From Tenacibaculum sp. SZ-18 (GTDB lineage Bacteria > Bacteroidota > Bacteroidia > Flavobacteriales > Flavobacteriaceae), in the NCBI RefSeq assembly GCF_002813915.1, contig NZ_CP019335.1:2277777-2341776 (forward strand): a stretch of 64,000 nucleotides of DNA, given 5' to 3'. Positions within the stretch are counted from its first letter, which is position 1. Each line of letters starts with the position of its first letter. Below, piece by piece: positions 11,614-30,249 of this stretch. The notes under the pieces were generated by a model. It saw only the letters and a list, made by a program, of their open reading frames with translations. It was not told where the DNA came from and searched no databases. A program made the translations under genes and the position numbers.

Positions 11614-12138
11614 ATGAAAAGATACATTATTACAGGAGCACCAAGCACTGGTAAGACGACACTTATTAATAGGTTACAGAAAAACGATCACACTGTTTTT
11701 GAGGAAGTATCTCGAAAAATTATAATTTCTGAACAGAAAAAAAACAGTAATAAAACTCCTTGGGAAGATGTTTTTGGTTTTACAAATCTTGTTTACCAAC
11801 AAACTATTAAAGAATTGAGTACACCTATTTTTAAACATGCTTTTGTAGATCGAGGTTTGGCTGATAACATTGCCTATTTATTATTAAAAAAACAACCTGT
11901 TTCTGATGACTTTTTAGATTTTAATTATCACAAATTTTATCATAAAACAGTCTTATTCTGTCCACTTTGGAAGGAAATATATACTCAAGACGAACAAAGA
12001 TTACAGACTTTTGGAGAAGCAAAAGAATTAGAACAGTTATTGTTAAAAACTTACATTAGTTTAGGATTTAAAATTTTAGAAATACCAAAAACAACAGTTG
12101 AAAAACGTGTAGAATTTATTAACACTTTGTTAAATTAA
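11614..12138 (+). CDS. P-loop ATPase/kinase, AAA_28 (NadR-like) type
   Basis: 174 aa with Walker A GAPSTGKTT (about 8-16), an early EEVSRKII motif, and FVDRGLADNIAYLL in the Walker B position, the layout of small nucleotide/nucleoside kinase-like NTPases in the AAA_28 group. The gene starts 3 nt after the cbiB stop, so it is probably co-translated with B12 genes, but it lacks the CobU signature (GGARSGKSxxAE). It may be a stray NTPase or a non-orthologous partner in the nucleotide-loop steps, whose usual kinase gene is not in the window. Function unproven. Confidence 0.7.
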   Translation: MKRYIITGAPSTGKTTLINRLQKNDHTVFEEVSRKIIISEQKKNSNKTPWEDVFGFTNLVYQQTIKELSTPIFKHAFVDRGLADNIAYLLLKKQPVSDDFLDFNYHKFYHKTVLFCPLWKEIYTQDEQRLQTFGEAKELEQLLLKTYISLGFKILEIPKTTVEKRVEFINTLLN

Positions 12139-12545: not shown

Positions 12546-13385
12546 ATGGGTAAAGATGTATCAAAAGCTACAACTACTTTCTTATTTTGTGATGGTGGTT
12601 CGTGTAAAAAAGCGAAAAGTGAAATGGCTGTTCGTGAAGCCAGAGCACATCTAAGAAATGGAGGACTTTGGGATAAAACTCACAGTATTAGAACTCGATG
12701 TAATGGTCGTTGTGAAGACGCTCCAACTTGGATCGTACAACCTGGAAATTACTGGTATAAAAACGTAACTCCAGAAAAAGCTGTTGAAATTATCGATACT
12801 CATATCAATGAAAATAAACATATCGATTCATATCTTTTGTATAAAGATGGAGATGAAGTAATGGATTCAGAAAATGAAAGAACTGTCAAACCAATTGTTT
12901 TTAAGGAGAAAGATGATAAAGATTATGGAAATGCATTAGTAGCTCGTTCTCCCGCTTCAGATCAATTTCTATACCCACTATTTAAAAAACTTTTTGAAAC
13001 ACCATCTAATATTCAAGTAAATTTTCCAAATGAAAATCAGAAAATAATCACACAATCGCATCAGGTTACTTATACCGACGATTTTGATATTGTTGTAGAA
13101 GGACCAGAAACATATTTAATATTAGCCATTGGTCCGATTACTAAAGTAATGGAAAATGATGTTACTCAAGAAATTAAAGATAGAAAAGTTGGTGTTGCAG
13201 AAGTTATCTGGAAGCAAGAAGACACTGATTACATTGCTCATATTCGTTTAAAGAATAGGAAAGGAAAATTTTTAGTATCATTGGGAATTCCAAAAAATAA
13301 TAATACACTTTGGGAATATATTCTTAGTATTTACCTAAGTATGGATAGTAAAAAACCTAAAATAGTTTTACCTGTTGAACAATAA
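12546..13385 (+). CDS. Thioredoxin-like [2Fe-2S] ferredoxin-domain protein
   Basis: 279 aa. Residues about 8-85 match the thioredoxin-like [2Fe-2S] ferredoxin fold (NuoE C-terminal type): C15-x4-C20 in FCDGGSCKK and C52-x3-C56 in TRCNGRCEDAP, followed by PTWIVQPGNYWY. The rest (about 100-279) is not recognised; parts such as YLILAIGPITK and VGVAEVIWKQE look like a compact alpha/beta domain. No signal peptide, so cytoplasmic. It is the first full gene behind the cobalamin riboswitch and overlaps the next gene, before cobA and cbiX. An electron-transfer or metal-handling role in early corrin synthesis is likely but not shown. Confidence 0.8.
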   Translation: MGKDVSKATTTFLFCDGGSCKKAKSEMAVREARAHLRNGGLWDKTHSIRTRCNGRCEDAPTWIVQPGNYWYKNVTPEKAVEIIDTHINENKHIDSYLLYKDGDEVMDSENERTVKPIVFKEKDDKDYGNALVARSPASDQFLYPLFKKLFETPSNIQVNFPNENQKIITQSHQVTYTDDFDIVVEGPETYLILAIGPITKVMENDVTQEIKDRKVGVAEVIWKQEDTDYIAHIRLKNRKGKFLVSLGIPKNNNTLWEYILSIYLSMDSKKPKIVLPVEQ

Positions 13386-14193
13386 ACAAATTAGCATATT
13401 AGGATGTGGATGGCTTGGTTTGCCTCTAGCTGAATATTTAATGGATAGAGATTATAGAGTAAAAGGCTCAACAACATCACATTCAAAAGAAGAAACACTT
13501 AAGGAACGTAATATTATTCCTTTCGTGTTTAAGTTAGGTGAATCCTATGAGAAAACTTTAGTGACTGAATTCTTTTCAGACAGTGAAGTAGTTATCATCA
13601 ATTTTCCCCCTAAACGTATTCCTAATATTTTCAATGTGTACCAAGAACAAATAAAAGAAATATTACCATATATAAAACCAGAACAAAAAGTAATTTTTGT
13701 TAGTTCTACTTCTGTATACCAAAACACAAACGATTGGGTTACTGAAACCATAGAAAACAAACCTGAAAAAGAATCAGGGAAAGCAGTTTTAGCTGTTGAA
13801 CAACTTTTACAAGCACATGTGAGAAATAATCTTACCATTCTTCGTTTAGCTGGATTGATTGGTTATGATAGAGTCCCAGGACGTTTTTTAGCAAAGAAAA
13901 AAGAAGTTGCAAATGGTAAAGCTCCGATCAATGTAATCCATCAAGATGATTGTATCGGATTAATCAATGCTATTATTTCTGAAAATGCTTGGGGAACTAT
14001 AATTAATGGTTGTGCTGATGAGCATCCGTTACGAGAAACTTTTTATACTTTGGCTGCTGAAAAAGAGGGATTAATTCCTCCTGAATTTAAAGCTTTTGAC
14101 CGTATTGAGTTTAAAAAGATATCAAACACGAAAAGTAAAATGTTACTAAAGTATAACTATAAATATCCAGATCCTTTAATTCTTGTTTCGTAA
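13375..14193 (+). CDS. Rossmann-fold NAD(P)-binding protein, SDR/epimerase-like
   Basis: 272 aa. The N-terminus ISILGCGWLGLPLAEYLM is a dinucleotide-binding glycine motif, followed by INFPPKR, VIFVSSTSVY (catalytic Ser/Tyr region of extended SDRs) and RLAGLIGYDRVPGRF. It resembles the YeeZ-type / NAD-dependent epimerase group. The start is a TTG overlapping the 3' end of the preceding gene by 11 nt; there is no ATG before the glycine motif. The gene abuts cobA exactly. Because no Met8/CysG-type precorrin-2 dehydrogenase is in the window, a redox step at precorrin-2 is one possible job, but this is speculation. Confidence 0.75.
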   Translation: MNNKQISILGCGWLGLPLAEYLMDRDYRVKGSTTSHSKEETLKERNIIPFVFKLGESYEKTLVTEFFSDSEVVIINFPPKRIPNIFNVYQEQIKEILPYIKPEQKVIFVSSTSVYQNTNDWVTETIENKPEKESGKAVLAVEQLLQAHVRNNLTILRLAGLIGYDRVPGRFLAKKKEVANGKAPINVIHQDDCIGLINAIISENAWGTIINGCADEHPLRETFYTLAAEKEGLIPPEFKAFDRIEFKKISNTKSKMLLKYNYKYPDPLILVS

Positions 14194-14916
14194 ATGCAGA
14201 AGATAACTATTATAGGTGCAGGTCCTGGAGACCCAGAATTACTAACAGTAAAAGCTTATAAACTGATTAAAAATGCTGATGTTATTTTACATGACAACTT
14301 AGTTTCTTCAAATATTTTAGATTTAAATATTGCTGCTGAGAAAATATATGTAGGTCGAAAATTTGGAGATCAATCAGATCAAATTAGTAGACAAGATCGT
14401 ATTAATCAATTGTTACACGAATATTATTTAAAGGGCAAAAAAGTAATACGATTAAAATCAGGCGATCCTTATATTTATGGGAGAGCTGCTGAAGAAGCTC
14501 GATACTTAGTAAAACATGAATTACCGTTTGAAGTAGTTCCTGGAATTACCGCTTCAATTGCAGCTGCAAACACATTAAATATCCCTATAACAGAACGAAA
14601 TCATTCAAATGCAATGCTCATTTGTACTGCTCATACTGCTGATTATTCTTTTGAACAACTCAACGGAATTGCACATATGCTAAAAGCAGGAAATACGATT
14701 TCTATTTATATGGGATTAAAAAGTTTACATAGAATTATTCCAAAACTTTTAGAAGTTTGTAAAGATGAGACGATTCCAGTAAACGCTATTTCAAACGTAT
14801 CAAGAGAAAATCAACAAATTATTACAGGTACTTTGGCTAATATAGAAAGCAAAATAGCCGATAGTGCTATTCCAATGCCTGTAGTTTTTATTATTGGAGC
14901 TACTCCAATCCATTAA
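14194..14916 (+). CDS. cobA: Uroporphyrinogen-III C-methyltransferase (SUMT)
   Basis: Adds methyl groups at C2 and C7 of uroporphyrinogen III, giving precorrin-2, the branch point to sirohaem and B12. Tetrapyrrole methylase fold: IGAGPGDPELLTVKAYKLI at the start, VILHDNLVS, the RLKSGDPYIYGRAAEEARYL signature and the PGITASIAAANTLNIPITER SAM-binding region. 240 aa, a single-domain SUMT without the CysG dehydrogenase part. Starts directly after the stop of the SDR gene, and cbiX begins 11 nt after it. Confidence 0.95.
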   Translation: MQKITIIGAGPGDPELLTVKAYKLIKNADVILHDNLVSSNILDLNIAAEKIYVGRKFGDQSDQISRQDRINQLLHEYYLKGKKVIRLKSGDPYIYGRAAEEARYLVKHELPFEVVPGITASIAAANTLNIPITERNHSNAMLICTAHTADYSFEQLNGIAHMLKAGNTISIYMGLKSLHRIIPKLLEVCKDETIPVNAISNVSRENQQIITGTLANIESKIADSAIPMPVVFIIGATPIH

Positions 14917-14926
14917 AACAAAACCA

Positions 14927-15865
14927 ATGAAAGAAGGAATTTTATTATGCGGGCATGGTTCTAGACGAGCGGCTGCTGTTACATCGTTTAAAAGATTAGT
15001 TACCGTTTTAAAAGAACGTTATGAAGACAAATACGAAGTTGATTATGGTTTCTTAGAGTTTAACCACCCAACTTATGAAGCAGCTGTTGAACGAATGTAT
15101 TTAAATGGAGTTCGAAAAATATATGCTTTACCTGTAATTTTGTTTGCTGGATCGCATGCTAAAAATGATATTCCTTTTGAATTAAACACCTTACAAACTT
15201 ACCACGATGACCTAACTATTTCAATGGCAAAACATATTGGTGTGAGCTCTTTTTTATTGGATTTAGCCGTGAAACGAATCACAGAAACTGAAGCAAAACT
15301 TACTCCTTTAGATAGAAAAGAAACATGTTTAATTGTGGTAGGTAGAGGCACAACAGATCCTGATGCGAATAGTGATGTTGCTAAATTAATGAATATGCTT
15401 TGGGAAGGTTTAGGCTTTGGTTTTGCCACTGTTGGTTACAGCGGAACTGCTTATCCGAATGTAAAAGAGAGTTTAGAATTGGTAAATAAATTAGGATTTA
15501 AACGTACCATTATCATCCCGTTTTTCTTCTTTACCGGTGTATTATTGGAACGTATTTACGGAGCAGTTGCCGCCATGCATGAAAAGTCTGAACATGAATA
15601 CATTTATACCGATCCTTTTGGGACTGATGAATTAATTTTAAAAGCTTTTGATGAGCGTTTAGATGAGGCTAAAAATGGTATGGCTAATATGAATTGCCAG
15701 ATGTGTAAATACCGAAAGCAAGTTGTTGGTTTTGAAGAATATTTAGGTCAAGAGCAAATGGGACACCATTTAAATGTTAAAGGTGTTTTATTTGAAGAAG
15801 ATGAAAAACCCGGAGAAACGAAAGGAGGTATCAGTAATACAATTAAAAAGATTTTAGGAATTTAA
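14927..15865 (+). CDS. cbiX: Sirohydrochlorin cobaltochelatase, long form with MxCxxC motif
   Basis: Inserts cobalt into sirohydrochlorin early in the pathway. Two CbiX repeats: the first starts GILLCGHGSRR with LPVILFAGSHAKNDIP (metal-binding His), the second has LIVVGRGTTDPDAN. Near the C-terminus MNCQMC matches the MxCxxC motif that in long CbiX proteins binds a [4Fe-4S] cluster; only a short HH pair follows, not a long His run. The ATG at 14927 precedes KEGILLCGHG; the upstream TTG at 14894 lies inside cobA and is unlikely. 312 aa. Last gene of the riboswitch operon. Confidence 0.93.
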   Translation: MKEGILLCGHGSRRAAAVTSFKRLVTVLKERYEDKYEVDYGFLEFNHPTYEAAVERMYLNGVRKIYALPVILFAGSHAKNDIPFELNTLQTYHDDLTISMAKHIGVSSFLLDLAVKRITETEAKLTPLDRKETCLIVVGRGTTDPDANSDVAKLMNMLWEGLGFGFATVGYSGTAYPNVKESLELVNKLGFKRTIIIPFFFFTGVLLERIYGAVAAMHEKSEHEYIYTDPFGTDELILKAFDERLDEAKNGMANMNCQMCKYRKQVVGFEEYLGQEQMGHHLNVKGVLFEEDEKPGETKGGISNTIKKILGI

Positions 15866-15910: not shown

Positions 15911-18900
15911 TTACTCCACAATTCCTTCTCCTTCAAGGTATAGATCTTCTAGTTGTTGTTTAATTTCGCTTGAAGGTTCTTGCCACATACCACGTTGAAT
16001 TGCTTCTAGCAAACGCTCGCTCATATCTTTTAACGCCCACGGATTGTTGTCTTTAATGAAGGTTCTATTTTTTTTATCTAGCAAATAACGCTCTGTGATA
16101 CCTTCATACATAAAATCATCAATCAAGTTTGTAGTTGCATCATAAGCGAACAAATAATCTAAAGTTGCCGCCATTTCAAAAGCTCCCTTATACCCATGGC
16201 GCTGCACACCAGCAATCCATTTTGGATTTATCACCCTTGATCGATATACTTTTAACAACTCTTCTTTTAATGTTTTTACTTTTGGCGTTTCTGGCCTTGA
16301 ATGATCTCCGAAATATACTTCAGCTTCACTTCCCTTTACGGTAGCAACAGCATTTGCTAGTCCGCCTTGGAATTGATAATAATCATCACTATCTAAAATA
16401 TCATGTTCTCTATTATCCTGATTATGCATTACTATTTGCATCGCTTGCAACCTGTTTGTAAATGATTCGTGTGCTGAAACACCTTTCTTAGAATTTCCAT
16501 AAGCATAACCACTCCAATTAATATATACTTTGGCTAAATCTTCTTGTGTTTCCCAATTTTTCTCATCAATCACAGCTTGTAAACCTGCGCCGTAGGCGCC
16601 TGGTTTAGATCCGAAAACTCGATATAAAGCGCGTTGTTTAGCTTCTTCCTCAACTAAACCTTTTGCTTTCCAATCGTTAGATTCTTCTACAAATCGTTTA
16701 CGAATCGGGTTTTCCTCTAAAGATTCATCTAACTCAGCAACTCTAGCTACAGCAGTATTGAATAAATTAACTACATCTGGGAAAGCATCTCTAAAAAAAC
16801 CAGAAATACGTAATGTAACATCTACTCTTGGACGTTGTAATTTAAGTAATGGAATAACTTCAAAATCGCTTACTCTTCTATTAGCATTCTTCCAAATTGG
16901 TTTTACACCCATTAAAGCAAAGGCTTGAGCAATATCATCTCCTCCAGTTCGCATTGTAGAGGTTCCCCAAACAGAAATTCCAATTGTTTCGGGATAATCT
17001 CCATGTTCTTGGATATAACGATCTATTATTAGTTTTGCACTTTTTTCACCTAAACGAAAAGCAGTTTCGGTAGGAATTGTTCGAACATCAACTGAATAAA
17101 AATTACGACCTGTTGGTAATAAATCTACACGTCCTCTTGTTGGAGCTCCTGACGGACCAGAAGGAATATACGCTCCATTCAATCCTTCTAATAAATTTGT
17201 AATTTCTTCAGTTGTGTTGTGTACAGCAACTAAGGTTTTATGTTTTATGATTGCTAAAACTTCATTTAGTTTAGGGTATGTTTCAGATAAAATATTTGCA
17301 TCTAAAAATTGTATCAGTTGTTGTTTTGCTATAAACTCTAATTGCTCAACAACTTGACCTACAGTTTTGCATTTTTTTTCACCAATCTTTATCTCTAATT
17401 TTTCAGCATAATCTAATGCTAAAATATTTTGTTCTATTCCAAGATCTTCGGCTAAAACTTGTGTTATTCCTTTCTGCTCGTAAGTTGGCATTCTGTGTAA
17501 AGCAATTAATAAATCAATTAATTGTTCATCAACTGGAGCTTTTCCGAAAATATGCAATCCATCACGAATTTGTGCTTCTTTCAATTCACATAAATATCCA
17601 TCTAATTTTACCAAAAGTTCATCTACATCATCCGAAGTAATTCCTAAATCAACATTCAGTTTAGTTTCTTTAACCAAATTGGCAATTTCGTTCTCTAAAG
17701 CTTTTGATCGTTTCGGATCTAAATTTGAAGCTTCATAATATTCATCAACTAAATGCTCTAGTTTCATTAAACTCCCGTAACTTTCAGCTCTTGTCATCGG
17801 TGGAATTAAATGATCTATAATTACAGCTTGATTTCTTCGTTTTGCTTGAGTTCCTTCTCCCGGGTCATTGATGATAAATGGATAAAAATGCGGTAACGCA
17901 TCGAATAACATCGCTGGAAAACAAGTTTTAGGATCTAAAGACACACTTTTTCCTGGCAACCATTCTAAGTTTCCATGTTTTCCTAAATGAATCACAGCAT
18001 CTGCTTGATATGTATCTTGTAACCAGAAATAATAGGCTAAATATTGATATGTTGGAGCTAAATCTGGAGAATGATAAATTGCTTGAGGATCTTGATTATA
18101 ACCTCTGGAAGGCTGAATACTTATAAAAATATTTCCTAATAAAAATCCGGAAACGATAAAACCTCCTTCTGTAAAATAAGGATCATTATCTGGAGTTCCC
18201 CATTGTTCAATTATCTTTTCTTGTAATGTTTTTGAAACATTAGCGAATCGTTTTTTAAAATCTGATAAACCATATATAATTGCGTGAGGACGAGTTTGTG
18301 TTGTGCTAATATCATTGGTTGTAACCTGGGTAATCCAATGCATTAACTCTGTTCCAGATTGTGGTAATTGTTCTCCTAAATTATAATTCGCTTCTTGTAA
18401 TGCATTTAATAGAACGGTACAACTTGCAGGTGTATCTAACCCTACTCCGTTAGCCAATCGACTATCCTTATTGGGATAGTTAGGTAATATAACAGCTACT
18501 CGTTTTTCTCCATTTTTCTTTTCTTGTAATTTAATCCAGTTCTTTGCCAATCGCGCCATAAATTCACAAGCTGGTTTGTGAGCTTCATATTTTACGATTG
18601 TACTATCGGTAATTTCATCTTTTTGAACCTCTTTTTTAAAAGATACTGCTCTACCTATAATTCTTCCATCAATTTCTGGTAAAGCTACATTCATAGCAAT
18701 ATCAGTAGGTGGAAGACCAAACATACCTTCTTCCCAAACTGTTTTATTTGTAGTAGAAAAAATGGCTTGTAAAACAGGAATTCCTAATCTATCAAATATA
18801 AAATCTGTAGTATCAGAAGATTTAATTGTAAATCCTGTTGTATTAATTATGGCTGATATTTTTCTAGTGCCTGAATTCGTCATTAGTTTTTCAAGATTAA

Positions 18901-19657
18901 ACAAGGTATCAGTATCTCTCAGATTATTCGCAAAAGCCACAACAGGCTGTATTCCTTGATTTAATAAAGATTGGCTTAAAACTTCTAAAGGTTCTAAGTT
19001 ATTGGCCAAGAAATGAGTTCTATATGCTAATAAAATTGTTATTGGTTGGCTATGAGCTAAACTTAAATCTAATTCCTCTTGTGTGACAATTCCGTTGTCA
19101 AATGTATATAAGAATAAGTCCTCTACTTGTTCAGCTGTAACTACCTCAACAGTTTGATTGAAAAAGTTCTTACGGATATAATTTAAAAAGTTAATTGCGT
19201 TTGCTTTTCCTCCTTGTTGTAAATATTGTCTACAATGATGCACCGTTTGTATTGGTACAGAAGACAACTTCATCAATTCGTAATCGGGCTCATGAGCGGG
19301 AATAAAAAGTAACACACAATTGGTTTTTTCTTGTAGTTCAACTAACGATTCAACCAAATATTTATAATAACTTATTCCTCCTAAGAGACTGCAAACAATA
19401 ACTTTCGCTTTTTCTAAAACATCTTCTACATAATTATCTATAGTCAATTCTTGTTTTAGATATACCAAATTGGTCATACGTAAACTTGGCAGTGTATCAC
19501 TTTCTTCGGCATAAAGTGTTTTATAAGCTTCATTTACCGTATGTATTTCGGTATCACCTGCACTTAAAAAAACAATATCTCCTGGTTTTTGTTCAATGTA
19601 AAAAACTCCGTCATCGTCTGGATTCCAACCTCCAGGTATTGTTGCTATTAAATGCAT
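15911..19657 (-). CDS. cobN: CobN-type cobaltochelatase large subunit
   Basis: 1248 aa, the length of CobN/BchH-family chelatase large subunits. Diagnostic stretches: VIHLGKHGNLEWLPGKSVSL, FPFIINDPGEGTQAKRR, YIPSGPSGAPTRGRVDLLPTGRNFYSVD (about 845-875) and SGYAYGNSKKG. It binds the tetrapyrrole and cobalt while the AAA+ subunits provide ATP hydrolysis; in the aerobic pathway the substrate is hydrogenobyrinate a,c-diamide. Last gene of the long minus-strand unit, 6 nt after cbiA, with the ChlI/ChlD-like subunit two genes upstream. Its presence with CbiX is notable. It converges on cbiX with a gap of 45 nt. Confidence 0.95.
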   Translation of the reverse strand: MHLIATIPGGWNPDDDGVFYIEQKPGDIVFLSAGDTEIHTVNEAYKTLYAEESDTLPSLRMTNLVYLKQELTIDNYVEDVLEKAKVIVCSLLGGISYYKYLVESLVELQEKTNCVLLFIPAHEPDYELMKLSSVPIQTVHHCRQYLQQGGKANAINFLNYIRKNFFNQTVEVVTAEQVEDLFLYTFDNGIVTQEELDLSLAHSQPITILLAYRTHFLANNLEPLEVLSQSLLNQGIQPVVAFANNLRDTDTLFNLEKLMTNSGTRKISAIINTTGFTIKSSDTTDFIFDRLGIPVLQAIFSTTNKTVWEEGMFGLPPTDIAMNVALPEIDGRIIGRAVSFKKEVQKDEITDSTIVKYEAHKPACEFMARLAKNWIKLQEKKNGEKRVAVILPNYPNKDSRLANGVGLDTPASCTVLLNALQEANYNLGEQLPQSGTELMHWITQVTTNDISTTQTRPHAIIYGLSDFKKRFANVSKTLQEKIIEQWGTPDNDPYFTEGGFIVSGFLLGNIFISIQPSRGYNQDPQAIYHSPDLAPTYQYLAYYFWLQDTYQADAVIHLGKHGNLEWLPGKSVSLDPKTCFPAMLFDALPHFYPFIINDPGEGTQAKRRNQAVIIDHLIPPMTRAESYGSLMKLEHLVDEYYEASNLDPKRSKALENEIANLVKETKLNVDLGITSDDVDELLVKLDGYLCELKEAQIRDGLHIFGKAPVDEQLIDLLIALHRMPTYEQKGITQVLAEDLGIEQNILALDYAEKLEIKIGEKKCKTVGQVVEQLEFIAKQQLIQFLDANILSETYPKLNEVLAIIKHKTLVAVHNTTEEITNLLEGLNGAYIPSGPSGAPTRGRVDLLPTGRNFYSVDVRTIPTETAFRLGEKSAKLIIDRYIQEHGDYPETIGISVWGTSTMRTGGDDIAQAFALMGVKPIWKNANRRVSDFEVIPLLKLQRPRVDVTLRISGFFRDAFPDVVNLFNTAVARVAELDESLEENPIRKRFVEESNDWKAKGLVEEEAKQRALYRVFGSKPGAYGAGLQAVIDEKNWETQEDLAKVYINWSGYAYGNSKKGVSAHESFTNRLQAMQIVMHNQDNREHDILDSDDYYQFQGGLANAVATVKGSEAEVYFGDHSRPETPKVKTLKEELLKVYRSRVINPKWIAGVQRHGYKGAFEMAATLDYLFAYDATTNLIDDFMYEGITERYLLDKKNRTFIKDNNPWALKDMSERLLEAIQRGMWQEPSSEIKQQLEDLYLEGEGIVE

Positions 19658-20967: not shown

Positions 20968-22626
20968 TTATAAAGATGAAAAAGGTACATATCGTAAATT
21001 TAAAGCTTTGGCCAATTGTTTTGCTTTGCCTAGTTTCACAAAACTGTTTTCTGTATCTACAATTGTAGTATTTGATAATTTAGACAAATACATTTTGTAA
21101 TTTTTCACAGCAAAATCAAATGGACTTTCATGACCCGCATTAATTTTTCCGTCAGTTAATACAAATAGTTGTACGGTTTTAGTATTTATTGATTTCAACA
21201 ACTCAAACACTCTCAAAAAAGCACTTCCTAAGTTTGTTTTACCTCCAGCTTTTAATTGATAACTAGCTTCTTGAATTCGCTTACTATCTGTAGTAAAATA
21301 TTGTAAAATTTTTGCTGATGAATTTTCTAAAACTACAATAGCGTATTCAATCTTTTTTGAAGGATAAGAAGCTATTGTTTTCTGAATAATGCCTTTAACA
21401 AAACCTAATTGTTTATCAACTGCCATAGAAGCACTAGTGTCTAACAAAAAAACAATTTTAGCCGATGCTTTCTCAGAAATCTGTTGATATATCTTGGTAA
21501 ACTTTCGAGTTACAATATAATTTTTAATTGTCTTAACAATTGCCAAATGATCTGCTTCTTTAGCAATGTATGGACTTTTTACAAGTTCATTATTCGTTGG
21601 TAGTGCTTCTACTTTTTTTTTTGACGCCTGCGGAATAGAAAATTGTAATCCATTTTTAATATTCTCTGGAAGTTGAAACGAATTTGATCCTTGTTGAAGC
21701 TCTTTATTTTCTTTCTTCTCTTCTTCTTTTAAAGTCCGCTCACTTGAATTCTCTTTATCCTTTGACGGAGTAAAATCATTACTTCTATGCGCTAAAACAA
21801 AAGGAGCTATTTTATATAACATTGCCTTTGTAGTTTCACTTTCTCCTAATAAAGCTGCATAAGCTCTAGTAGTTTTTAATAAAAGTATATCTGCTCTTAA
21901 TCCCTCTACATTGGCTTCAACAGTTAATTTAGCAGCTTCGTTTTGTACTTTTTCTGTTAATACTACGTCTACTAATTTATTTTTTGCTGAAATAATTTCT
22001 GCTCTTAATACTGATTCTTCTTCTTTTAATTGTTCATAAAATTCAGTAGAATTCGTGTCAAAATTTAAACGTTGTAATGCTATTTTTTTTCGAAGCTTAA
22101 TATCTTTTGGTGTTGAAATAGCAACACTTAATCCGAATCTATCTTTTAGCTGTGGACGTAATTCTCCTTCTTCAGGATTCATTGTACCAACTAAGCAAAA
22201 TCTACTATCTAACCATTCAGAGATCCCTTCTCTTTCTAAATGATATCCACCAGATGCAGCAGCATCTAATAGCACATCCATTAAGTAGTCATTCAACAAG
22301 TTGATTTCATCTATATATAAAAATCCTTGATGTGATTTTGCTAATAAACCTTTATCTACAATAGTTTTTTTCTGATTAATAAGTGCTTCTAAATTTACAC
22401 TTCCTAATACACGGTCTTCAGTTGCGCCAATAGGTAAGTTTACAAACGGAAAATCTTCTCCCATTAATTGACTTAATGCTCTAACCGTGGTTGTTTTACC
22501 TGTTCCTTTATCTCCAGTTGCTAAAACTCCTCCAATAGTTGGATCTATTAGATTCAGTAGCAAACATAATTTAAAATCATCTTGACCGACAATTGCTGTA
22601 AATGGAAAATTAATTTTGTTTTGCAT
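20968..22626 (-). CDS. Magnesium-chelatase ChlI/ChlD-like AAA+ and VWA fusion
   Basis: 552 aa. AAA+ part (about 1-300) with Walker A TGDKGTGKTT (about 38-47), Walker B GFLYIDEINLLNDYLMD and RFGLSVAI; an acidic and Lys-rich linker (about 305-355); a C-terminal VWA domain (about 385-552) with MIDAS motif FLLDTSASM and the distal LTDGK. It combines the ATPase (ChlI/BchI) and integrin-like (ChlD/BchD) roles that CobS and CobT play in classical B12 producers, so it is the likely energy-coupling partner of CobN in the same operon. Magnesium chelation is unlikely because no chlorophyll genes are present. Confidence 0.92.
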   Translation of the reverse strand: MQNKINFPFTAIVGQDDFKLCLLLNLIDPTIGGVLATGDKGTGKTTTVRALSQLMGEDFPFVNLPIGATEDRVLGSVNLEALINQKKTIVDKGLLAKSHQGFLYIDEINLLNDYLMDVLLDAAASGGYHLEREGISEWLDSRFCLVGTMNPEEGELRPQLKDRFGLSVAISTPKDIKLRKKIALQRLNFDTNSTEFYEQLKEEESVLRAEIISAKNKLVDVVLTEKVQNEAAKLTVEANVEGLRADILLLKTTRAYAALLGESETTKAMLYKIAPFVLAHRSNDFTPSKDKENSSERTLKEEEKKENKELQQGSNSFQLPENIKNGLQFSIPQASKKKVEALPTNNELVKSPYIAKEADHLAIVKTIKNYIVTRKFTKIYQQISEKASAKIVFLLDTSASMAVDKQLGFVKGIIQKTIASYPSKKIEYAIVVLENSSAKILQYFTTDSKRIQEASYQLKAGGKTNLGSAFLRVFELLKSINTKTVQLFVLTDGKINAGHESPFDFAVKNYKMYLSKLSNTTIVDTENSFVKLGKAKQLAKALNLRYVPFSSL

Positions 22627-25180: not shown

Positions 25181-27031
25181 CTATTTTACAAGTTTTGCCT
25201 TTTTCCTAAAAATGTGATGCCAATTATCATCGTACAACCAAGACCTATTCTTTCTTGCACCAACAGCTTCTCCAACAACTATTAAAACCGTTCTAGTTAA
25301 TTTATTATCCTTTATTATTTGAGTCAATTCTGTCAGTTTCCCTGTCCATACCTCTTCATCTTTCCAACTTACTCGGTATAATACGGCTAAAGGAGTTTCA
25401 GGTGGATAATGTTCTAGTAGTTCCCCTTGAACTTTCTTTGCTATTCCTGCACTTAGAAAAATACACATTGTAGCACGCAATTTTGCCATATCAGCAATAT
25501 TTTCATGTTCAGGTGTAGGTGTATTTCCTTCTCCTCTTGTTAAAATTATTGTTTGGGCAACTTCTGGAATGGTAAACTCGGATTTTAAATAAGCGGCAGC
25601 TGCCTGAAACGATGAAATTCCTGGCACAATAAAATAGTCATATCCTTTGGCGTCAAAAATGGTCATCTGTTCCTGAATTGCTCCATAAATAGAAGGATCA
25701 CCTGAATGTAACCTTACTATTTTTTTTCCTTGCTCATAATAACTATCCACAATTTCTATTTGTTCTTCCAGAGTCATCGAAGCAGAATTTCGAACCAAAG
25801 CACCTTCTTTTGCCATATGTGTTAATTCCTCTGGAACTAAGCTCCCAGCATATAAAATACAATCTGCTTCCTCCAATAATTGCTGACCCTTCAAAGTTAA
25901 AAAGTCAGGATCTCCAGAACCAGCTCCAACAATTGCAATGCTTGGTTTTCTAGCAAAATCAGTAACTAAACTGATTGCATAAGTGAATTTTTTACCAGAA
26001 TCGGTATTTACTTTTGTTTTCTCTACCAACCATTCACTTTCACTAGCGATTAAGGCTGCAGATGCTTCGGAAACACCATAAACTCCTACTTTTTTCTTAA
26101 CTACTTCTGATGGATTTGCCACATCGATACTATTAAGTTCGTCTCCATTATAGGTAATTAGTGGAATATCTAATTTGGTAACGATGTTGAGATAAGCTTG
26201 TTCTTCTGCTTTAATATCAGCAGAACCAATAGCCATTACACTTTCAATTGCCACTTTCTGCTTTTGCAACTCCTCACGTAACATTTTCTCAAAGAGTTCT
26301 GGTTCAATATCCTTAGAACAACCACTTCCTAGTGCAATACATTTTGGATAAAATGCTAATGTCGGTAAATCTAATTCAATTAACTCGTAACCTACATATA
26401 CTAAAGCTTCATATTTGTCTCTAACGACATTATCTAAACTGTAATAAATGGTAATAAAATCCGGACAGGTTTTTTCTAAAAATTCAGTTCCTTTATCTTT
26501 TACTTTTAAAACTAAAGCAATCGGTTTTCTGTTAACAAATGAGGAAATTATAGTATTTAATTCGGTGTTACATTTCTGAGTCCAACCGTATTGTTCTGCT
26601 AACATATCTAAATTCCACAAATCTTGTAAATCACTAGATGTCGAAACAACAGGAGTTGCTTGTAATATTCTACTAATTTGAGCCGTTAGTTCATTCGCTT
26701 TACCTACATGTCCGCTTAACACAGACTGTGCAAATTTTCCTTGATCATCGATATTAACTACCGCAGGATCTGTTTTTTTATCTTGAATTACATTTGCAAT
26801 ACTTCGCACACAAATACCTAAAGCTCCAATAAAAAGCCAAGCATCGTATTTATGAAATGAAGCTTCTATTAACTCCTTTACAGAATCAATCCGTTTTATA
26901 TCTTTTGTTTCTTCAACTGCTCTTGTTGTAAAAACTTTACTTCTGTAAAACTCATTTTGTAATGTTATAGCAATATCTGATCCTTTATCTGTAAAACTGA
27001 TAATTGCTACTTTTAAAACTTGCTCTGCCAT
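25181..27031 (-). CDS. CbiG-CobM fusion: cobalt-precorrin-5A hydrolase and precorrin-4 C11-methyltransferase
   Basis: 616 aa, two enzymes in one chain. Residues about 1-345 are CbiG: WLFIGALGICVRSIANVIQDKK, SVLSGHVGKANELTAQI and the C-terminal CIALGSGCSKDIEPELF repeat; it opens the delta-lactone and releases acetaldehyde. Residues about 360-616 are CobM/CbiF: IAIVGAGSGDPDFLTLKGQQL, LYAGSLVPEEL, VRLHSGDPSIYGAIQEQM and PGISSFQAAAAYLKSEFTIP. The two catalyse neighbouring steps, so substrate handover is plausible. The fusion occurs in some Bacteroidota. 6 nt from the reductase gene, 4 nt from cobL. Confidence 0.94.
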   Translation of the reverse strand: MAEQVLKVAIISFTDKGSDIAITLQNEFYRSKVFTTRAVEETKDIKRIDSVKELIEASFHKYDAWLFIGALGICVRSIANVIQDKKTDPAVVNIDDQGKFAQSVLSGHVGKANELTAQISRILQATPVVSTSSDLQDLWNLDMLAEQYGWTQKCNTELNTIISSFVNRKPIALVLKVKDKGTEFLEKTCPDFITIYYSLDNVVRDKYEALVYVGYELIELDLPTLAFYPKCIALGSGCSKDIEPELFEKMLREELQKQKVAIESVMAIGSADIKAEEQAYLNIVTKLDIPLITYNGDELNSIDVANPSEVVKKKVGVYGVSEASAALIASESEWLVEKTKVNTDSGKKFTYAISLVTDFARKPSIAIVGAGSGDPDFLTLKGQQLLEEADCILYAGSLVPEELTHMAKEGALVRNSASMTLEEQIEIVDSYYEQGKKIVRLHSGDPSIYGAIQEQMTIFDAKGYDYFIVPGISSFQAAAAYLKSEFTIPEVAQTIILTRGEGNTPTPEHENIADMAKLRATMCIFLSAGIAKKVQGELLEHYPPETPLAVLYRVSWKDEEVWTGKLTELTQIIKDNKLTRTVLIVVGEAVGARKNRSWLYDDNWHHIFRKKAKLVK

Positions 27032-27035
27032 ACTA

Positions 27036-28226
27036 TTACTTTCCTTCTGTTTTAGTTGCTTTTAATAAGCATATCGGATTATGCAAATCTAAGGTTAAAT
27101 TTATCTCTTCTACTAATTCCCATCCTAGGATTTTACAACTCTCTTTAAATATTTTATTACTCCTTTCTTTCACTGTATTCATAACAATAATTGCATTAGG
27201 AGTAATGACTTGATTCACTTTTTTTAGCAACTCTTCTAATCTACCTCCATGTCCGCCAATAAAAACTGTATCTGGTTGACTATAATTTTCTATATCTTGT
27301 TCAAAAAAATCACCTATAACTCCTCGAATTCCTGGGACTCCGAATGTTTTTTGATTCTGATAAAGTATATCTTCACATTCTTCTCTTTTTTCAAAAGCTA
27401 TAACTTCTATATTAGGATTTTTCAACTTTGCTTCAATAGCAATTGAGCCTGTGCAGAATCCGATATCCCAAAATACTTTTGTTTTTAGTATTTCTAATAA
27501 ATGTAAAGTCGTTAACCGAACTGGCATTTTCGTAATCATATTGGGTCTACCTGGTAATCCTTTAAAATTTCCATCCTTAATTCCAAAATGCTTTTCTCTT
27601 TTCTCTATTCTATGCAATAACACACAATTCAATTTATGATAATCGTTGTTTAGAGCTTCTGATAATTTTAAGGTTTGAACTTTTTCCTGTTCACCTTCTA
27701 AATCTTCTCCGATACTTATTTTATAATTTGTAAATCCATATTCAAGTAATCGCTTTGCTATTGCCTTTGGACTTTTAACCACATCTGTTAATACGCCAAT
27801 CAAACTTTTTTGTTGAATTAATACAGCATCTAGTGCTTTCCAAGTTCTTCCATGTACACTAACCGCTATTAACTCATTACTATTGGTATTTGTTTTATTT
27901 GCTAGTAATTGAATCGAACTAAAATAAGGCTGAGTATGGATTACAGCATTTGGATATTTATTCTGAAGTGTGTTTGAAAAACCATAAAATAATGGATTTC
28001 CAGAAGCAAATATCACAACATTGGTTTGTAAACTTTCATACTCCTGAAATACAGTTACCATAGGACTTTTAATATATATCCATCGGTAGTTTTCGGGAAG
28101 TACATCTTTAACCAATTCAAAATGACGTTTACCTCCACTAAAAACCTTTGTATTTCTAATTAACTCGTTTTGTTCATTGGAAAAAACAGGTTTTGAATTC
28201 CCTATACCAATTACATGAAATATCAT
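27036..28226 (-). CDS. cobL: Precorrin-6Y C5,15-methyltransferase, decarboxylating (CbiE-CbiT fusion)
   Basis: 396 aa. N-terminal tetrapyrrole methylase (CbiE, about 1-205) with VIGIGNSKP, VFSGGKRHFELVK and IFASGNPLFYG; C-terminal class I SAM methyltransferase (CbiT, about 215-396) with VFWDIGFCTGSIAIEAKL, IEVIAFEKREEC and FIGGHGGRLEELL. It methylates C5 and C15 and removes the C12 acetate carboxyl. The SAM-binding glycine loop reads GFCTGS rather than the usual GAGTGS, an unusual bulky substitution. Starts by overlapping the last base of the bluB gene's stop. Confidence 0.94.
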   Translation of the reverse strand: MIFHVIGIGNSKPVFSNEQNELIRNTKVFSGGKRHFELVKDVLPENYRWIYIKSPMVTVFQEYESLQTNVVIFASGNPLFYGFSNTLQNKYPNAVIHTQPYFSSIQLLANKTNTNSNELIAVSVHGRTWKALDAVLIQQKSLIGVLTDVVKSPKAIAKRLLEYGFTNYKISIGEDLEGEQEKVQTLKLSEALNNDYHKLNCVLLHRIEKREKHFGIKDGNFKGLPGRPNMITKMPVRLTTLHLLEILKTKVFWDIGFCTGSIAIEAKLKNPNIEVIAFEKREECEDILYQNQKTFGVPGIRGVIGDFFEQDIENYSQPDTVFIGGHGGRLEELLKKVNQVITPNAIIVMNTVKERSNKIFKESCKILGWELVEEINLTLDLHNPICLLKATKTEGK

Positions 28227-28879
28227 TAATACTTTTCTTGAATTACAACTTCTTGCTGAAACTTTTTATAGTCCCACTTTTTAATTTCTAATTCGGGTTT
28301 ATTATAGAACTTATCTGTATAACCGAAACATAAATATCCAATTAATTGATTGTCAACAGGAGCATTTAAAATATCTTTCACTTTTTTAGGGTCTAAAATA
28401 CTTACCCAACCCATGCCTATATTTAGTGACCTTGCCATTAACCACATATTTTGAATTGCACAAACTACGCTGTATTTCCCCATATTCGGCATACTTGTTT
28501 GTCCTAATACCGGTTCTTTTTTAGGCTTGTAAAACACCGCAATATTTAATGGAGATTCAGTAATTCCTTCTAACTTTAATTGAAGATATTTTTGTTGCTT
28601 TTCATCTGAAAATTGAGTTATTGCTTTTTCATTTTCTTTTTGAAATGAACTACGTATCGCTTTTTTAGTTTTTTCATCATAAATAATAACAAATTCCCAA
28701 GGCTGTGAAAATCCAACTGATGGTGCAGCTAGGGCAGCTTGTAAAATTCTATCTATATCCTCTTCTCCAATAGGATCTTTTTTAAAATGATTTCCTCTAA
28801 CATCTCTACGATGCAGTAGAATTTCTTCTAGAACCTGTTGTTCTTTTTCATTGAAAAAACGTTGTGTTTCACTTTCCAT
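28226..28879 (-). CDS. bluB: 5,6-Dimethylbenzimidazole synthase
   Basis: Nitroreductase-fold enzyme that breaks down reduced FMN with oxygen to make DMB, the lower ligand of B12. 217 aa with LHRRDVRGNHFKKDPIGEED at the N-terminus, AAPSVGFSQPWEFVII, and GMGWVSILDPKKV near residue 150; these match BluB better than general nitroreductases. Because the reaction needs O2, its presence points to an aerobic host, at odds with a strictly anaerobic reading of the CbiD/CbiG route. 2 nt downstream of the cobJ-cobH gene. Confidence 0.95.
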   Translation of the reverse strand: MESETQRFFNEKEQQVLEEILLHRRDVRGNHFKKDPIGEEDIDRILQAALAAPSVGFSQPWEFVIIYDEKTKKAIRSSFQKENEKAITQFSDEKQQKYLQLKLEGITESPLNIAVFYKPKKEPVLGQTSMPNMGKYSVVCAIQNMWLMARSLNIGMGWVSILDPKKVKDILNAPVDNQLIGYLCFGYTDKFYNKPELEIKKWDYKKFQQEVVIQEKY

Positions 28880-28881
28880 CT

Positions 28882-30249
28882 TTAGGATAATTCTAATTTA
28901 GAAACTTCATCAAAAGTAAAAGCTGCATTTACAATAGCTGCTGCAAAATTACTTCCACCACGCCGTTCTGTAATTAGCGCAAATGAAGTCTCTTTTTGCA
29001 TTTTTAAACGTTCTTTAGATTCTATCACATTTATAAATCCTACTGGTGCTCCTACAATTCCTACTGGTTGTATTGTTCCTTCATGAACTTGATCTACAAT
29101 TTCAATTAAGGCTGTTGGTGCATTTCCAATTACAAATAATGCGTTTGGATATTTCATAGCAGCACGTTTAATCCCAGCCTGAGATCTGGTTAATCCTTCT
29201 TCTGCTGCTAGCTTTAGCGTTTCTTCATCATTTAACAAACAAACAACTTCATTGTTATATTTTCCAGTAAAAGCTCTTGTGATTCCTGCTTTTACCATAG
29301 TTACATCAGTAACAATTACTCCACCATTCTTCAAATAATCATTCCATTTTTCAATAGCTCCTTTCGAGGTTTCTATATAGTTGATATAATCGAAATCTCC
29401 TGAAGTATGGATACAACGAATAGCTGCCCATAAATGATCTTTATCTAGATTTTTTTCAGGTAAATTCTCTAAGATTTCTCTAAAGCTTGCATCCTGAATT
29501 TCTTGTCCGGTTTCTGGTTTTCTATTTAAATATCCTCTTGGTGTAATTAAATGATCTCTATACCTAAATGTTTGGCTATTTCCAATCATGACAACACTGA
29601 ACATATCTACGTCTTCTACATTTAATTCTCCTAGCGTTGTTATTTGAATATTTTCTTCTGTTCTTCCCAATTGCTTACAAATAGCGATAGGTGTTGATGC
29701 TTCTCTATACTTTAAATAGATGTTTTTTAAAGCTTGTAATTGCCAATATCTCTTCTTACTTCTTGGGTTATACAATCCTGTAACAAAATCACCTTGAGCT
29801 GCCGCTTTTATTCTCTTTTCAATAGTTGTCCATGATGTCATTAAATCAGACAGAGAAATACAACAAAAATCATGTCCTAAAATTGCTCCTAGTTTGCTTC
29901 CTGCTGTAATAAATGCTGAAATCCCTGGAATAGTTTCTACTGGAATTTCTAATTGTTGTTCTGCTACTTTCTGATATACAATAGAAGCCATTGCGTAAAT
30001 ACTGGCATCTCCAGAACCAATAACAATTACATTTTCTCCTTTTTGAGCATATTCTATTGCTATTTCTGCTCTTTTTTCTTCTTCACTTAACTCTTTTCCA
30101 ATACAAACTGCATTAGGTTCTATTAAATGTTGAATGAATTGAAAGTAGTAATGATACCCAATAATTACTGTTGCTTTTGCAATTACTTCTGCAGCCATAG
30201 GAATCATATATTGATGATTTCCCGGACCTATTCCAACAACTTTAATCAT
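28882..30249 (-). CDS. CobJ-CobH fusion: precorrin-3B C17-methyltransferase and precorrin-8X methylmutase
   Basis: 455 aa. Residues about 1-245 are CobJ/CbiH: VVGIGPGNHQYMIPMAAEVI, VIGSGDASIYAMASIV, GISAFITAGSKLGAILGHDF and FVTGLYNPRSKKRYWQL; this half methylates C17 and contracts the ring. Residues about 265-455 are CobH/CbiC: AIRCIHTSGDFDYINYI (His of the methyl-shift site near 286), VTDVTMVKAGI, FVIGNAPTAL and GAPVGFINVIESKERL; this half moves the C11 methyl to C12. The two steps are separated in the pathway, so the fusion suits a shared complex, not direct channelling. Overlaps cobI by 8 nt. Confidence 0.95.
   Translation of the reverse strand: MIKVVGIGPGNHQYMIPMAAEVIAKATVIIGYHYYFQFIQHLIEPNAVCIGKELSEEEKRAEIAIEYAQKGENVIVIGSGDASIYAMASIVYQKVAEQQLEIPVETIPGISAFITAGSKLGAILGHDFCCISLSDLMTSWTTIEKRIKAAAQGDFVTGLYNPRSKKRYWQLQALKNIYLKYREASTPIAICKQLGRTEENIQITTLGELNVEDVDMFSVVMIGNSQTFRYRDHLITPRGYLNRKPETGQEIQDASFREILENLPEKNLDKDHLWAAIRCIHTSGDFDYINYIETSKGAIEKWNDYLKNGGVIVTDVTMVKAGITRAFTGKYNNEVVCLLNDEETLKLAAEEGLTRSQAGIKRAAMKYPNALFVIGNAPTALIEIVDQVHEGTIQPVGIVGAPVGFINVIESKERLKMQKETSFALITERRGGSNFAAAIVNAAFTFDEVSKLELS

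Follow-up and report, generated by a model that had tools for sequence, protein, structure and literature searches.

A two-domain [2Fe-2S] protein and an SDR protein at the head of a cobA-cbiX operon in Tenacibaculum sp. SZ-18

Described systems and the operon behind the cobalamin riboswitch

The closest described counterpart of the first gene considered here is cbiW of Bacillus (Priestia) megaterium. CbiW is reported as a thioredoxin-like [2Fe-2S] ferredoxin (PMC6250708), and its gene is the first to follow a B12 RNA element (PMC5948670), in an operon of the order cbiWHXJ... (PMC8123684); the function of CbiW is left unstated in the descriptions used here. In the same organism, the MxCxxC-type site of the long CbiX (CbiX-L) is described as housing a [4Fe-4S] centre. 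For the second gene, the comparison is with CysG, in which a methyltransferase is combined with Met8 (PMC7242693).

The locus compared with these systems lies in a window of 64 kb, the whole stretch of DNA that was analysed. A cobalamin riboswitch (RF00174; 12147..12340, + strand; cmscan 116.6 bits, E 1.4e-28, full model 1-189) is the sole Rfam match over threshold that cmscan returned in this window. It precedes an open reading frame of 279 aa with an ATG start (12546..13385, +), encoding a two-domain [2Fe-2S] protein that we call FdxN, a label of convenience taken from no database. The next frame (13375..14193, +), of 272 aa and with a TTG start, encodes an atypical extended SDR protein, hereafter SDR; the homologues listed carry Met at the position equivalent to the TTG. 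The two frames overlap by 11 nt, and SDR, ending at 14193, directly abuts cobA, the B12-operon copy of the uroporphyrinogen-III C-methyltransferase gene (14194..14916, +; TIGR01469 241.1 bits, cut-off 185). A long-type sirohydrochlorin cobaltochelatase gene follows, cbiX (14927..15865, +; PF01903 147.8 bits; ATG start read from the sequence). CobA and CbiX both score well above their family cut-offs. The initial annotation had described this same arrangement, one cobalamin riboswitch followed by a [2Fe-2S] gene, an overlapping SDR gene, cobA and cbiX, and the coordinates and the Rfam search agree with it. Promoter-like and terminator-like sites were not clearly commoner than in shuffled sequences (10 vs 17.5 and 2 vs 1.5, respectively), and the fold of the leader RNA is unexceptional (z -1.5). 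The gap between riboswitch and FdxN is only 205 nt, and the operon contains no TonB receptor gene.

The window looks like a near-complete cobalt-early B12 gene set; B12 gene names without a family match were assigned by eye from the translations. Assigned in this way, the cbi genes at 25181-30249 (-) include the fusions CbiG-CbiF, CbiE-CbiT and CbiH-CbiC. In locus L041 a single frame has matches to CbiJ as well as to CbiD. The gene that separates cbiB from the riboswitch (11614-12138, +) encodes an AAA_28 NTPase (PF13521), which had no NCBIfam match and could be a candidate non-orthologous cobinamide kinase; it adjoins cbiB in most relatives and cbiA in L059 and L062. Genes for CobN (PF02514, 1311.9 bits; 15911-19657, -) and a ChlI/ChlD-type AAA + VWA protein (20968-22626, -) adjoin cbiX, so that two kinds of chelatase are encoded in one cluster. 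Flavo-1 RNA matches were found in L032 (10406-10487 and 7510-7594) and L044 (8038-8125), where they adjoin the riboswitch, cobA or cbiX.

FdxN and its linkage to cobalamin genes

Further information about FdxN was obtained from its AlphaFold model (mean pLDDT 93.5). Residues 1-105 (12546..12860, +) form a thioredoxin-like [2Fe-2S] ferredoxin domain, as had been annotated from the sequence, and its four cysteines (Cys15, Cys20, Cys52 and Cys56) are kept in 56/56 aligned sequences; the match to PF01257 (E 1.5e-4, 22 bits) is below the cut-off of 24.8. FdxN shares with CbiW this domain with its C-x4-C...C-x3-C pattern, the first position behind a B12 RNA element and an operon with a long CbiX. 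It differs from CbiW, to which it is likened by description and not by direct sequence comparison, in about 160 extra residues with a ChuX-like fold. Residues 118-266 (12897..13343, +) are predicted to fold like the cytoplasmic haem carriers ChuX, HutX and HemS (PhuS), and the predicted domain structurally matches ChuX, HutX, AGR_C_4470 and PhuS. The resemblance is one of predicted fold: identity in the structural alignments is 6-8%, residues 116-279 have no Pfam match, and in a search of the PDB sequences down to an E value of 10 the FdxN profile A1 retrieved no ChuX/HemS sequence. Unlike these carriers, the domain is fused to a ferredoxin and encoded in a B12 operon. Judging from the model, FdxN is a CbiW-like ferredoxin with a second domain, and as far as these searches go the combination has no described member. 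The closest named relatives, 91% identical, are from Tenacibaculum.

The distribution of FdxN was compared with that of CbiD in 396 genomes of the same family. CbiD scored over its cut-off in 13/396, and the FdxN profile (E <= 1e-12), searched with identical settings, found the same 13 genomes and 0/383 of the others (Fisher 1.3e-24, with shared ancestry ignored). A fourteenth CbiD match, in G496, is weak and below the cut-off. The positive genomes are spread over 11 of 187 genera, and SDR, alone or fused to CobA, stands beside FdxN in all 13; for G459, G624, G685 and G704 its placement comes from open frames and coordinates and not from retrieved loci. One genome of the family, G208, carries full-length FdxN and a B12 operon without SDR and cobA, Met8 and CobA being encoded elsewhere in the genome. 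Among 18 B12-pathway genomes from other families of the phylum, full-length FdxN was absent and only short ferredoxin-domain matches appeared.

At the level of loci, 31 distinct FdxN loci were compared, omitting L042, L050 and L054 as repeats of L018, L023 and L020. The gene after FdxN is a separate SDR in 19, an SDR-CobA fusion in nine, cbiX in one and pduO in two (L033 and L034). FdxN precedes cbiX in L040 although that operon has neither SDR nor cobA. The cobalamin riboswitch is present in 30/31 loci, the exception being L034, with only 729 bases upstream. In 15/31 a frame of 665-810 aa lies between riboswitch and FdxN (for example L015 5313-7562, L033 5547-7979 and L014 9271-11313), and 3/3 of those tested are TonB receptors. 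L033 is labelled Thalassovita; with cob genes similar to Bacteroidota ones, this MAG contig is possibly mis-binned. In G746, which is one of the 13 CbiD-positive genomes, FdxN is broken (L053 8409-9032) and the adjoining B12 genes look intact. The co-occurrence of FdxN and CbiD is solid, and we consider it very likely that FdxN is specific to de novo B12 synthesis.

SDR, CobA and the precorrin-2 step

SDR scores just above the cut-offs of Epimerase and NAD_binding_2. The Rossmann-fold, SDR-like character assigned to it at the outset is borne out by a glycine-rich nucleotide motif and by the predicted model (pLDDT 95.6), which is that of an extended SDR; its best structural matches by Z, 3ius and 3gpi, are titled as being of unknown or putative function. 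Escherichia coli YeeZ is a full-length homologue (135.1 bits over YeeZ residues 1-273) with an uncertain position in the SDR tree, being on a long branch. Unlike the operon SDR, its gene adjoins yoeB-yefM and the his operon and not cobalamin genes; no yeeZ paper found in a literature search gave a function in its title or the start of its abstract. The catalytic YxxxK of extended SDRs is not found in SDR. Presumably its Tyr position is occupied by S134, in a register relative to GalE that we assume, and because of this apparent replacement we call the protein atypical; S134 is invariant in alignment A2. Neither PF13241 nor TIGR01470 appeared among the family matches of SDR at E up to 1, and the best 50 structure matches listed for its model are extended SDRs and include no Met8 structure. 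By sequence, then, SDR is YeeZ-like and not Met8-like, and what it may have in common with Met8p and SirC is the proposed reaction only.

In many Bacteroidota SDR is fused in front of CobA, giving a protein of about 514 aa with CobA as its C-terminal half. Both parts occur in one chain in 90 of the 120 homologues listed out of 378, with SDR first in 89 of them, and nine fusion loci were retrieved; this fusion, too, is a solid observation. The order, an N-terminal Rossmann domain followed by CobA, is that of CysG as read from NF007922 matches, but here the Rossmann domain belongs to the extended SDRs and has no Met8 sequence match. Our literature search found no paper on the SDR-CobA fusion, nor on cbiX and cobA of Flavobacteriaceae.

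SDR was also considered as a component of other B12 operons, and this led nowhere. In one genome with an SDR-CobA fusion, a second SDR copy overlaps cobT by 4 nt (L043 6400-7251); the neighbour tested beside the L051 SDR is not cobT. Among ten retrieved copies of family f32, three adjoin cbiA (L059, L062 and L066) and seven do not (L060, L061, L063-L065, L067 and L068). In the source genome itself, a short frame of 125 aa (L071 5176-5553, C1 about 1109175) is what is left of another SDR copy; the wider match there contains stops.

Close stand-alone SDRs were found in at least six CbiD-negative genomes (G356, G571, G582, G633, G681 and G698), a lower bound given that three candidates were scored per genome, and they were judged within stretches of 9-13 kb. 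In G571 and G633 searches for CobA (E <= 1e-15), Met8, CbiD and FdxN found none. The G356 copy looks functional, since its pairwise dN/dS is low (0.09-0.13 vs 0.13-0.25 among operon copies). It could also be the remnant of a lost cob locus, as a galE-like gene near it (L047 3904-4917) shares 74% identity with the gene on the left side of the L018 cob operon. The SDR tree interleaves stand-alone copies with operon and fused copies. With these copies and this mixed tree, the family seems to be active outside precorrin-2 metabolism as well, and the view of SDR as a precorrin-2 dehydrogenase only is weakened; the operon copies are possibly, but not necessarily, specialised.

According to the initial annotation, the pathway from CobA to CbiX needs a precorrin-2 dehydrogenase, and no Met8/CysG-type gene was seen at this locus. 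A PF13241 profile search of the whole genome found none inside the window and one strong match outside it, a canonical Met8/SirC of 195 aa (TIGR01470, cysG_Nterm, 120.6 bits). Its gene is part of a siroheme operon, where its neighbours are another copy of cobA, a sulphite/nitrite-reductase-like gene and cys-type genes. Absence of Met8 from the source genome is thus rejected and, as a dehydrogenase borrowed from the siroheme operon would suffice, this genome has no gap that the pair would have to fill. What survives of the proposal that the pair supplies precorrin-2 oxidation is the tie of SDR to CobA and the fusions in CysG order, although no enzyme is lacking. For the idea that the pair inserts iron or cobalt no support was found, and CbiX is present.

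Met8 was then called in 36 B12-pathway genomes, 32 with CbiD over its cut-off and four chosen for their cob loci (G002, G003, G012 and G018). The calls used PF13241 in 25 genomes (strong being E < 1e-20), with TIGR01470 added for eight, and TIGR01470 in the remaining 11. Met8 was absent in 7/36, three of which (G284, G292 and G382) had no CobA over the cut-off and were set aside. In the other four (G063, G142, G471 and G540) SDR lies within the cob cluster: it adjoins cobA in G142 and G540, is one gene away from it in G063, and adjoins cbiX in G471, whose cobA is about 19 kb further along the same contig. G063 and G142, which are from a different class, have neither Met8 nor full-length FdxN, with SDR close to cobA and cbiX. 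Among Met8-positive B12 makers SDR is beside cobA or cbiX in 15/29, including G459, G624, G685 and G704, placed by open frames and coordinates. G208 is the reverse case, having Met8 and no SDR in its B12 operon. Of the conserved gene order and its anti-correlation with met8/cysG that had been suggested for checking, the linkage holds in 13/13 CbiD genomes of the family, while the contrast with Met8 (4/4 vs 15/29), small and uncorrected for ancestry, is suggestive only.

The MxCxxC motif of CbiX (MNCQMC; 15689..15706, +), located by pattern search, is C-terminal and, together with the CbiX domain (PF01903, 147.8 bits), makes the window's protein a CbiX-L type. The CbiX set from FdxN loci comprises 28 rows, of which one is a repeat, and 27/27 distinct proteins carry the motif; it is absent from the CbiX of the two SDR loci that lack FdxN. 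This pattern fits the earlier suggestion that the [2Fe-2S] protein reduces the Fe-S cluster of CbiX as far as a link between the two proteins is concerned; electron flow from one to the other is conjectural.

Possible roles of the pair and their alternatives

FdxN and SDR probably deal with early B12 intermediates, and we propose that they are dedicated accessory redox proteins at the entry to the cobalt-early ("anaerobic") B12 route of marine Bacteroidota, which are mostly aerobes. The ChuX/HutX-like domain of FdxN would hold a cyclic tetrapyrrole, be it sirohydrochlorin, cobalt-sirohydrochlorin or cobalt-factor III. Such binding is quite conceivable, if somewhat short of an even chance. The cluster would pass electrons either to the bound tetrapyrrole or to the CbiX Fe-S cluster, so that FdxN keeps the intermediate reduced and hands it on. 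SDR would bind NAD(P), work as a partner of CobA and take the CobA product as its substrate. Most likely it would be a second, pathway-specific precorrin-2 dehydrogenase, unrelated in sequence to Met8, which directs precorrin-2 towards cobalt insertion and leaves siroheme synthesis to SirC of the siroheme operon. That SDR does oxidise precorrin-2 is in our estimate rather doubtful. To the observed gene order, riboswitch, co-occurrence, fusion, predicted folds and conserved cluster cysteines, this proposal adds a tetrapyrrole ligand, an electron flow, a substrate and a direction of reaction that we infer. Taken whole, mechanism included, a pair dedicated to redox chemistry and tetrapyrrole handling at the precorrin-2/cobalt-sirohydrochlorin stage is the reading that we favour, tentatively and without calling it probable.

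SDR could instead be a YeeZ-type general enzyme, for instance in metabolite repair or as an unrelated reductase, whose gene sits in the B12 operon for the sake of co-expression. Cobalt may also enter precorrin-2 directly, and either this or SirC, which the genome encodes, would then supply the step. The homology to E. coli YeeZ (135 bits), the stand-alone homologues in at least six CbiD-negative genomes, of which two gave no match for CobA or Met8, and the conservation of many cob-type invariant residues in the wider family alignment agree with this account, which is a real possibility, if a somewhat doubtful one. It sits less well with the widespread CysG-like fusion to CobA, with an operon that keeps SDR in 13/13 CbiD genomes of the family sample, and with the closeness of SDR to cobA and cbiX in genomes of a second class that lack Met8.

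FdxN, for its part, might act at the other end of the pathway, reducing cob(II)alamin or corrinoids for adenosylation or handling imported corrinoids in place of precorrinoids. The TonB receptors (3/3 tested) among the frames that separate it from the riboswitch in 15/31 loci, and pduO directly next in L033 and L034, point in this direction. If uptake or adenosylation were its only task, some CbiD-negative genomes should carry FdxN, and 0/383 do; moreover, it precedes SDR, SDR-CobA or cbiX in 29/31 loci, and the window's operon lacks a TonB gene. We judge a late role to be unlikely. Adjacent and overlapping genes might also suggest one composite dehydrogenase/chelatase replacing Met8 outright, but the two are separable among loci (SDR without FdxN in L038 and L039, FdxN without SDR in L033, L034 and L040) and a CbiX chelatase follows in cobA-containing units, save L035, whose contig ends inside cobA. 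We reject this very improbable idea. Chance neighbourhood with no B12 link has a negligible probability given the 13/13 vs 0/383 distribution of FdxN, the riboswitch in 30/31 loci and the fusions.

Returning to the accessory redox pair, its boldest form would make SDR-CobA an analogue of CysG with an unrelated, non-orthologous precorrin-2 dehydrogenase reserved for B12, and FdxN a new kind of ferredoxin that holds tetrapyrroles and so enables aerobic marine bacteria to use the cobalt-early route despite its sensitivity to oxygen; this combination is unlikely in our view. In summary, the locus brings two questions within reach of experiment, namely what part CbiW-type ferredoxins play in making B12 and whether oxidation of precorrin-2 has arisen in protein families other than Met8. 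FdxN also offers a sequence marker, which in the family sample agreed without exception with B12 capacity as judged from CbiD, in a group that is likely to matter for the supply of B12 to marine algae.
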